Shown: piece after piece, positions 1 through 2,167 of the stretch | How the letters are laid out: every line of letters starts with the position of its first letter | Position numbering within the stretch: position 1 is the first letter of the stretch | From: Qipengyuania sp. SS22 | Lineage (GTDB): Bacteria; Pseudomonadota; Alphaproteobacteria; Sphingomonadales; Sphingomonadaceae | Length of the DNA stretch: 64,000 bases | Assembly (NCBI RefSeq): GCF_025736935.1 | Contig: NZ_CP107048.1 | Coordinates: forward strand, 1,116,001 to 1,180,000 | Direction: 5' to 3' | Position numbers and translations under genes: made by a program | The notes under the pieces: generated by a model | Told to the model about the DNA's origin: nothing | The model's input: the letters and a program-made list of their open reading frames with translations, nothing else | Database searches by the model: none

Positions 1-1
1 T

Positions 2-1543
2 GACGCGACGAGAGTATGGATTGATATCGATCGAGAGAATGACAGTTTTATGATCTCGGATGATGGGGTGGGAATGACGTCGGATGATTTTGAGAATAAG
101 TTTCTCAAGATTGGATATTCGAAACGCAAAGAAGGGGGAATGGCAAGCGTCAAAGGAAGGCCCTATATTGGCGCCAAAGGTATTGGAAAGCTTGCCCTCT
201 TATCTTGCGCAGATAAAGTGTCCATTTTCACTCATACCGAAGGCACCCCTTATACTGGCGGCGTTATCATAAATGAGCAGCTTGATGCTGCGATTCAAAA
301 TGATCTAGTCCCCGATCAGTATCCGTTGGAACAACTTGATTACGATCTCATCGAAGACGTGTTCGAAAGAGATAAACATGGAACCACGATAGTTTTTGAA
401 GGAGCCGGTCGCGTTCTCAGTAATACTGATGGCTACATCAGAAAAATCCTGGCCCTATCTTTTCAATTTAGTCTGATTGATCCAAATTTCACTATCTACG
501 TGAACGATGAGGAGATAGCAGTCCACGACCTCGCGGATCTTTCCAAGAATACACAATTCTTGTGGACAATTAACGGGTACGACGATGATTACTTGGGAAC
601 GCTCGACAAGTTAGCGAGGCCCAAAGAAGAATTGACCACAGACCTAGCGATTTCCGGATATATAGCTTCGGTTGAATTACCGAGACATGCGAAGATACAC
701 GGGATGGACGAACGGGTGACTATCGATCTTTTCGTCAACGGGAGAGTGAGAGACAAAAACGTTATAAGGCATGTTCCCACCCAGCGAATTGTCGAAAGCT
801 ACATATACGGGCAACTACATTTCGATGGTCTCGACCGCGAGAATGCGGACCCTTTCACAAGCAGTCGTGAGGGCATCGTAGAAAACGACGTGGAGTTTAA
901 AAAGCTCCTAGAATACATACAGAAGGTCTTACTGCCGAAGGTCTTCGATGATTGGGACAAATTTCGCGGAGAAATCGGCAAGGAAGGCGATGATGAAAAT
1001 CCTCGCCGGACGAAAAAGGAGAGAAAAGCCGCCGCCCTCGTCTCAGCAGCCGAAGAGGAATTCACCGAGGACCTTCCACCTGAGCAGAAAAATACCGTTG
1101 ATGGGTGGGTGAATGAAATCCGTCCCGACGCACAATTTAACGTGGCTGCTTACATCGATTGCTTCTTGTCAGAAAATTTGGTCCGCAAATTCATGAGCGA
1201 GAAGGATATTGCCGTTCACAACTCGGTGACAGGCGAGGTTACGAAATATCGCACCAGAGAAACGCAGGCAAAACAAAGGGCTAACATAAACTTCGACGTT
1301 CGCCGTGGTGACGACGATTTGCTTTATCTGGGCATGAATGAGCTTGCTATTTGTGCTGAAGGGGGCGCTGCTCAAGACGGTCAAGTGAATCCAATGGTTC
1401 AATCTGCAACCGCCTACAAACCAGTGCGCGATGCAGTTGGGCATACAAGTCGATTGGCAGATCCCGCCAAATTGCATCTGACCGTTACCTTCGAAAATAT
1501 AAAGGGGCGGGTAAAGACGCTGTTGAGCGAGATGGAACCCTAG
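2..1543 (+). CDS. GHKL (HSP90/MutL-like) ATPase with C-terminal HEPN-like motif, 5'-truncated by the window edge
   Basis: The open frame runs in from base 2, so the N-terminus is missing; 513 residues are visible. They begin at the end of an N-box (DATRVWID), followed by the ATP-lid aspartate motif SDDGVGM (residues 19-25) and the glycine motif GAKGIGKLA (57-65), which together define a GHKL/HATPase_c_3 fold. A transducer-like region follows, including FVNGRVRD. Near the C-terminus, VRDAVGHTSRL (475-485) contains R-X4-H, the signature of HEPN ribonuclease or scaffold domains. Base composition is clearly more AT-rich than the neighbouring genes, suggesting transfer. Proteins of this type occur in defence and restriction islands, sometimes beside Z1, AIPR or Vsr genes, but those would lie outside this window. 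The ATPase call is firm; HEPN and the defence role are inference. Confidence 0.8.
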   Translation, partial: DATRVWIDIDRENDSFMISDDGVGMTSDDFENKFLKIGYSKRKEGGMASVKGRPYIGAKGIGKLALLSCADKVSIFTHTEGTPYTGGVIINEQLDAAIQNDLVPDQYPLEQLDYDLIEDVFERDKHGTTIVFEGAGRVLSNTDGYIRKILALSFQFSLIDPNFTIYVNDEEIAVHDLADLSKNTQFLWTINGYDDDYLGTLDKLARPKEELTTDLAISGYIASVELPRHAKIHGMDERVTIDLFVNGRVRDKNVIRHVPTQRIVESYIYGQLHFDGLDRENADPFTSSREGIVENDVEFKKLLEYIQKVLLPKVFDDWDKFRGEIGKEGDDENPRRTKKERKAAALVSAAEEEFTEDLPPEQKNTVDGWVNEIRPDAQFNVAAYIDCFLSENLVRKFMSEKDIAVHNSVTGEVTKYRTRETQAKQRANINFDVRRGDDDLLYLGMNELAICAEGGAAQDGQVNPMVQSATAYKPVRDAVGHTSRLADPAKLHLTVTFENIKGRVKTLLSEMEP

Positions 1544-1547
1544 GAAC

Positions 1548-1608
1548 CTATTCCTTGTCCCACAATCAGCAGAGCGGCGATTGACGCGTCCTGCGGGATG
1601 GTTACGTG
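1548..1608. repeat. Degenerate copy of the lepA 3' end
   Basis: This stretch resembles the lepA 3' end at 2168-2228 in the same orientation. Both start ctattcct and share gcggcgat and tcctgcgggat. Read on the minus strand it encodes VTIPQDASIAAL, against [12 protein letters not shown] in LepA. It sits 5 bases after the stop of the AT-rich ATPase gene, at the visible composition boundary. It may be an old attachment-site duplication or a scar of recombination with a foreign lepA end. No integrase is visible. Confidence 0.6.
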
Positions 1609-1755
1609 GCCCGCCACTTTCGCGGGGGTAGGCCGCCCTTCAGGCGATCGCGCGTTCTTCGTCGCTTTGCGTCTTCGCGCGGAGCACCTCTCGCCCGCCG
1701 TCGGGCGCCGCTCCACGATTGCTGGGGCAATCGCTCCATGCGCCCGCAAAATCCC

Positions 1756-2082
1756 CTACCCCTTCTTCCGCTTCTTCCGCGCCGCATATTTCGCGTCGCG
1801 CGCGGCCTTCAACTCCGCTTCGGTTGGTGCGGGGACCGCCTCGGCTTCGGCCTTGGCCTTGGCGGCGGCCTGTTTGTCGGCCTTGGCCTGCGCGATCGCG
1901 GCGCGCTTGGCGGCGCTCTTTTCGGCGATGGCGGCTTCTCGCGCTTCCTGTGCGGCCTTGCGCTTGGCAATCGTCGCCTCGTCGAGCTTGGGCGCGTCGG
2001 CCAGCTTCTTCAGCGCCTGCTCGCGCGCCTTCTGCGCCAGGGCGAGGCGGTCTTGCAGATTGGGGTCCTTGTATCCGGACAT
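1756..2082 (-). CDS. DUF6481 family protein
   Basis: A 108-residue, highly charged alanine- and lysine-rich protein starting MSGYKDPNLQDRL and ending in a basic tail (ARKKRKKG). Almost the whole length is predicted helical and probably coiled coil, with repeated Ala/Lys/Glu blocks; there is no signal peptide or membrane segment. The start at 2082 is chosen because the family begins near this methionine and AAGAGA lies about 9 bases upstream; an upstream in-frame start would add a low-complexity extension. It lies between the intact lepA end and its degenerate copy. DUF6481 is common in sphingomonads and has no known function; nucleic-acid binding is only a guess from the charge. Confidence 0.75.
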   Translation of the reverse strand: MSGYKDPNLQDRLALAQKAREQALKKLADAPKLDEATIAKRKAAQEAREAAIAEKSAAKRAAIAQAKADKQAAAKAKAEAEAVPAPTEAELKAARDAKYAARKKRKKG

Positions 2083-2167
2083 AAGCGGTAATCTCTTTTC
2101 TGGTTGGCCGGCGGGGTGAGCCGCGGGCTGATGGGGGCTGGACAGCACTGGCGCCGGGGGCGCGGGC

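Follow-up and report, generated by a model that had tools for sequence, protein, structure and literature searches.

A GHKL ATPase with a HEPN-like tail encoded beside a C5 DNA methyltransferase: a candidate restriction-like module in Qipengyuania sp. SS22

A 64,000-nucleotide stretch of the genome of Qipengyuania sp. SS22 (contig NZ_CP107048.1, positions 1,116,001 to 1,180,000, the whole of which is called the window here) opens inside a gene for a GHKL ATPase whose C-terminal tail is probably a HEPN-like domain and the RNA-cutting part of the protein, as judged from its motifs. The gene belongs to an operon with a C5 DNA methyltransferase (MTase), and its product joins a GHKL-S5 chassis to a helical domain carrying invariant HEPN-type motifs. 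The MTase is the only widely recurrent neighbour of this gene among its relatives and, at one genomic site, the gene is exchanged with a relative of DNase type. We think it rather likely that the pair forms a restriction-like module, in which the ATPase would test DNA for the partner's mark and, on finding it unmarked, release a HEPN ribonuclease (RNase); methylation gating, RNA as the substrate and a role against phages are what we infer. A more specific proposal, methylation-gated RNA restriction, in which a single 5-methylcytosine (5mC) mark would guard a GHKL effector that cuts either DNA or RNA, the two types being exchanged in place beside the same MTase, is advanced tentatively and could well prove wrong.

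The open frame on the forward strand at positions 2-1543 covers the final 513 of the 557 codons of its gene, whose start lies 131 bases to the left of window base 1, leaving 44 codons outside. Both GHKL motifs noted in the initial annotation, DDGVGM and GAKGIGKLA, are in place. The same annotation had pointed to an R-X4-H motif near the end of the frame, and R520-D-A-V-G-H525 indeed maps exactly to window positions 1427-1444. R520, H525 and T526 were invariant in all 58 aligned full-length relatives (alignment A2; 36-93% identity to the SS22 protein), the residue following R520 being either N (35 sequences) or D (23 sequences). Such invariance places the motif beyond chance. Hallmarks of the HEPN superfamily are Rx4-6H, in which N, D or H follows the R, and, in many families, Ex3[KR] (PMC3710099). 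The tail carries both, as R520-[N/D]-x3-H525 and E435-x3-R439, each in 58/58 relatives. When 30 C-terminal domains were aligned separately, just seven columns (Y, E, N, R, R, H and T) were invariant. An AlphaFold2 model of residues 386-557, which was compared with solved structures, was all-helical (pLDDT 93.9, pTM 0.84); fold comparison of the full-length protein returned GHKL structures throughout and was uninformative on the C-terminus. The HEPN-like interpretation of the C-terminus originally put forward is supported.

Assignment of the tail to a known HEPN family was attempted by profile comparison covering Ymh and DUF4145. The Ymh family (PF09509) was absent from the families matched by the protein or its tail, and an hhalign score of 12.5 against a 37-row Ymh profile fell inside the range of shuffled controls. 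The match to DUF4145 was insignificant, the profile being shallow. Used as a query, the C-terminal piece retrieved 30 proteins of 102-317 amino acids, which may be free-standing domains or fragments. In a separate protein of 535 amino acids (P0268), a Ymh HEPN domain (PF09509) shares the polypeptide with an N6-methyltransferase domain (PF02384).

Neighbours lying upstream were taken from the whole genome (one contig of 2,680,032 bases). The initial annotation had named Vsr- and Dcm-type proteins among the partners to look for on that side, and a Vsr gene and a C5 MTase gene are found directly upstream. The order on the forward strand is a small-terminase-subunit-like open reading frame (ORF), Vsr, the MTase and the GHKL gene, followed on the reverse strand by DUF6481 and lepA; the names given to lepA and, for genes lying further to the left, proC- and proA-like are presumptive. 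The Vsr and MTase genes overlap by ATGA and three bases separate the MTase stop from the GHKL start codon, hence the three genes look like one operon. In having a modification MTase and an effector within one operon, the cassette is built like a restriction-modification (R-M) system. G+C content (GC) in 500-base windows is 0.44-0.50 within the GHKL gene against 0.60-0.68 to its right, just as initially perceived. Low GC extends leftward across the MTase and Vsr genes (0.53-0.57), so that the GHKL gene closes, on the right, a small cassette of about 3.1 kb whose GC (0.44-0.57) is below that of its surroundings, and the surmise that it marks the edge of an island held. A phage origin, for which the terminase-like ORF (phrog_4044, E 2.2e-16) might have spoken, was rejected: two other genomes, G422 (L114) and G557 (L125), carry a similar ORF beside other contents, so the ORF was taken as a resident neighbour. 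ARAGORN found zero tRNA genes in L003 and L004, leaving a tRNA-linked insertion unsupported, and zero RNA families reached the gathering threshold in the cassette.

Full-length genes of this kind are rare. Among 149 genomes of the family two carried one, SS22 included; neither of the two further genus members did. At the level of the phylum, SS22 was the only positive genome of 398 sampled, a second match (G239) covering only the chassis. The 149-genome search returned two further matches, in G557 and G570, both of the longer kind described below. A conjugative Paracoccus plasmid carries the MTase-GHKL pair, and the chromosomal site holds other cassettes in sister genomes. All this makes it very improbable that the product is a housekeeping mismatch-repair protein, as some database names ('DNA mismatch repair protein') and weak matches to MutL and HtpG would have it.

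The relatives span Pseudomonadota, Bacteroidota, Actinomycetota and Saccharibacteria, in 41 loci. In 35 of the 41, a relative of the MTase (at least 40% identity over at least 200 amino acids) immediately preceded the gene on the same strand; in three (L005, L017, L018) it lay elsewhere within the locus, and none was found in the remaining three, L011, L016 and L042, the last at a contig end. No separate nuclease gene recurred: apart from the MTase, no neighbour family appeared in more than 6 of the 41 loci by mechanical ORF calls. Vsr lay within 3 kb in just five. This scarcity bears on the idea that the tail is non-catalytic, serving in dimerisation or nucleic-acid binding, with the GHKL part acting as a MutL-like clamp for the loading or control of Vsr or of a nuclease of the host. 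Although the N-terminal half is weakly similar to MutL, Vsr sits within the SS22 operon, and MutL and Vsr cooperate in very short patch repair (PMC2292703), the invariance of the R, H and E residues would be difficult to account for unless they serve catalysis or form a strict binding site, and we consider such a clamp improbable. Alignment A2 took in 35 of the 41 loci; L010, L012 and L015 were left out as near kept rows, with the motif intact, L032 because its frame ends early, and L042 and L044 because of truncation at a contig end. A protein search scored 8000 candidates and gave 4365 hits; 22 of the 120 proteins listed went into A2 and 61 into alignment A1. On plasmid pP73D of Celeribacter indicus (L124), an IS1380 transposase interrupts a copy of the short GHKL gene, and the MTase gene is still present upstream.

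Two kinds of protein could be told apart among the relatives examined. R[NDH]x3H marks the tail of the short kind, represented by A2. In the long kind, of 620-690 amino acids (L067, L068, L101, L102, L116 and L118-L123), its place is taken by a PD-(D/E)xK-like motif, for example VIVELKR, and R[NDH]x3H is lacking, in 11 of 11 cases. Conversely, the PD-(D/E)xK motif was not found in 57 of the 58 short rows; the exception, L025, shows an IEFK pattern alongside RNx3H that looks accidental. Pfam gave weak nuclease matches in three of six long tails scanned (SduA_C, 5.4e-4, in L123; PDDEXK_4, 0.031, in L121; PDDEXK_2, 0.088, in L122). A tree of the chassis (51 rows) placed the short kind on one side of a branch with 100/100 support, inner joins being unsure on account of long branches, L068 foremost. 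A C5 MTase was encoded near 10 of the 11 long proteins within the stretch examined, L121 being the exception. L067, at 719 bits, exceeded the cut-off for the restriction enzyme family BbrUII, alone in doing so among 299 genomes searched. The DNase-type set is a partial one: six of 12 chassis-only plasmid hits were fetched (H4, H5, H6, H10, H11, H12), and nine weaker GHKL hits (L070-L078) stand outside it. In an Escherichia coli phage, a protein of the long kind annotated as ParaMORC3 is encoded next to a Dcm gene. On plasmid p96k of Deinococcus sp. AJ005 (L119), genes for a DNase-type GHKL protein, a C5 MTase and Vsr lie next to the drmC gene of DISARM.

One alternative is that the SS22 protein is an ordinary Type II restriction endonuclease whose helical tail, although HEPN-like in appearance, acts on unmethylated DNA in the way that the BbrUII/HgiDII tail presumably does. 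The chassis, the MTase clade and the site are shared with the DNase type, PADLOC and NCBIfam place the N-terminal half under restriction enzymes, and no other nuclease recurs nearby. Against this stand the near absence of PD-(D/E)xK motifs from the short rows and the fact that the polar residues kept without exception match those of HEPN RNases. We judge this alternative unlikely and retain an RNA-cutting tail as the preferred reading.

The interval between proA and lepA varies between genomes. In two genomes of the same genus it holds, respectively, four low-GC ORFs, one of them with HNH_2 (G606; L113 925-3651), and a D12 adenine methyltransferase with two ORFs lacking Pfam hits (G422; L114 2001-4965). 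The site makes a small hot spot for defence-like cassettes. G523 has the same Vsr, MTase and short GHKL genes there as SS22. In G557, from another genus of the family, the terminase-like ORF is followed by Vsr (78%), the MTase (84%), a long GHKL protein of 669 amino acids and lepA. Nucleotide similarity between SS22 and G557 is 73.7% from L004 position 4290 through Vsr and the MTase to 5851; it stops 15 bases before the MTase stop and picks up again at the end of lepA (8167). The two GHKL proteins are 32% identical along 381 residues; between the tails, the alignment extends to 19 residues only. These natural alleles, SS22 and G523 on one side and G557 on the other, offer a close control, with a closely similar marking enzyme and a different output. 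Directly behind the GHKL gene lies a second, diverged lepA 3' end, forming a 43-base direct repeat (79% identical; window 1569-1611 and 2185-2227) with the DUF6481 gene (1756-2148, reverse strand) between the copies. The arrangement resembles a footprint left by integration or duplication at the lepA end. In G523 and G557 the effector gene adjoins lepA, with no DUF6481 ORF called in between.

In a tree of 47 MTases, HEPN and DNase partners were intermixed. Six changes of partner were required, at least four of them forced by well-supported branches, and a single clade of DNase partners was rejected (p-AU 1.7e-45; 8 versus 39 rows). Label shuffles needing equally few changes numbered 43 and 32 of 500. 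The tree left out L072 and L076, L100 and L115 (from the genome of L026), L017 (partial) and L119 (long branch). The MTase stretch between motifs VIII and IX, where we place the recognition region, shows strong conservation with either kind of partner (17 relatives and SS22). Because of this likeness, and because M.HgiDII, itself outside our alignment, marks GTCGAC (PMC5867850), we predict that the SS22 MTase marks GTCGAC or a near relative.

We envisage Vsr, the MTase and the GHKL-S5 protein as an R-M-like cassette with the last as its restriction half. The MTase would mark host DNA and Vsr would mend the T:G mismatches left by 5mC deamination. The GHKL-S5 part would close on DNA as an ATP-driven dimer, as its DNase-type relatives may do, and check the site that the MTase marks; closure on unmarked DNA would free or activate the tail. 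If the chassis reads that site, one MTase could therefore serve both kinds. A long tail would then cut DNA and, since the short one is HEPN-like instead of PD-(D/E)xK, its output should be RNA cleavage, presumably through R520, H525 and E435, which would stop the infected cell instead of, or besides, cutting phage DNA. Were this correct, restriction would amount to a test of DNA identity whose output is modular, either the cleavage of DNA or a growth arrest that acts through RNA. The methylation status of DNA would directly switch an RNase, and restriction and abortive infection would meet in one two-gene module.

The features discussed are collected in Table 1. Outside the window, the SS22 genome has a second GHKL gene (G000:C1:2244732-2245268; L002, L078), of about 700 codons, which ends in what reads as a second ATPase region, of histidine-kinase-like type.

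Table 1. Coordinates of the cassette genes and protein features. Plain numbers are window positions (L004 position minus 6000); G000:C1 is the SS22 contig.
Feature	Position	Strand	Remarks
Vsr	G000:C1:1114428-1114841	+	137 aa; TIGR00632, E 2.5e-42
C5 DNA methyltransferase	G000:C1:1114838-1115866	+	PF00145, E 1.3e-51
GHKL-S5-HEPN-like gene	L004:5870-7543, start G000:C1:1115870; window 1..1543	+	3' part inside window
GHKL ATPase and S5-like domain	2..988	+	residues 45-373 of 557
GHKL motif DDGVGM	59..76	+	residues 64-69; D64, G66, G68, M69 invariant in 58/58
GHKL motif GAKGIGKLA	170..196	+	residues 101-109; G101, K103-A109 invariant in 58/58
C-terminal HEPN-like all-helical domain	1025..1540	+	residues 386-557; AlphaFold2 model
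E435-x3-R439, second HEPN-type motif	1172..1186	+	E435, N436, R439 in 58/58
R520-D-x3-H525 (Rx4H), proposed RNase active site	1427..1444	+	R520, H525 in 58/58

Among the closest known systems is the restriction enzyme family BbrUII/HgiDII (NF050001). The GHKL-S5 chassis matches it over residues 10-375 (E 5.3e-82), 10 of the 11 long proteins have a C5 MTase partner, and the MTases are similar, recognition region included. The SS22 protein, however, reaches 276 bits against a cut-off of 550, short of full-length membership, has 557 rather than 620-690 amino acids, and bears a HEPN-like domain where its long relatives have a PD-(D/E)xK-like nuclease. In the broad sense it is a paraMORC, having GHKL ATP-binding motifs ahead of an S5 domain and lying in an R-M neighbourhood. 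It resembles chiefly paraMORC3, which shares these motifs and the company of a C5 MTase and Vsr but is typified by a C-terminal restriction-endonuclease fold, a HEPN tail not being mentioned in the available part of that account (PMC2292703). Fusions of Ymh-HEPN domains to paraMORCs in R-M neighbourhoods were proposed in 2013 to act like PrrC and RloC (PMC3710099), so that the HEPN-GHKL class of architecture is already anticipated. There too the HEPN domain is C-terminal to a GHKL paraMORC amid R-M genes; the SS22 tail, unlike those, matches neither PF09509 nor the Ymh profile, and may be a family counted in that survey or a separate HEPN family. The family was not met in the available parts of PMC8011034 or PMC13092281, and neither it, nor its two-gene unit with a C5 MTase, nor an in-place DNase/HEPN exchange was found in the literature searched; the exchange of effectors in place looks new. 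VcSduA, a Shedu protein with a GHKL N-terminus, offers a parallel for control of a C-terminal nuclease by a GHKL ATPase within one defence protein: both parts are needed for defence, and E27A and K557A abolish protection. It differs in its DUF4263 PD-(D/E)xK tail, and an MTase partner is not mentioned in the part of the report available (PMC12137116). The usual picture of R-M sets a methylase against a DNA endonuclease; here, an RNase-like output appears on the same chassis, beside the same methylase clade and in the same chromosomal slot.
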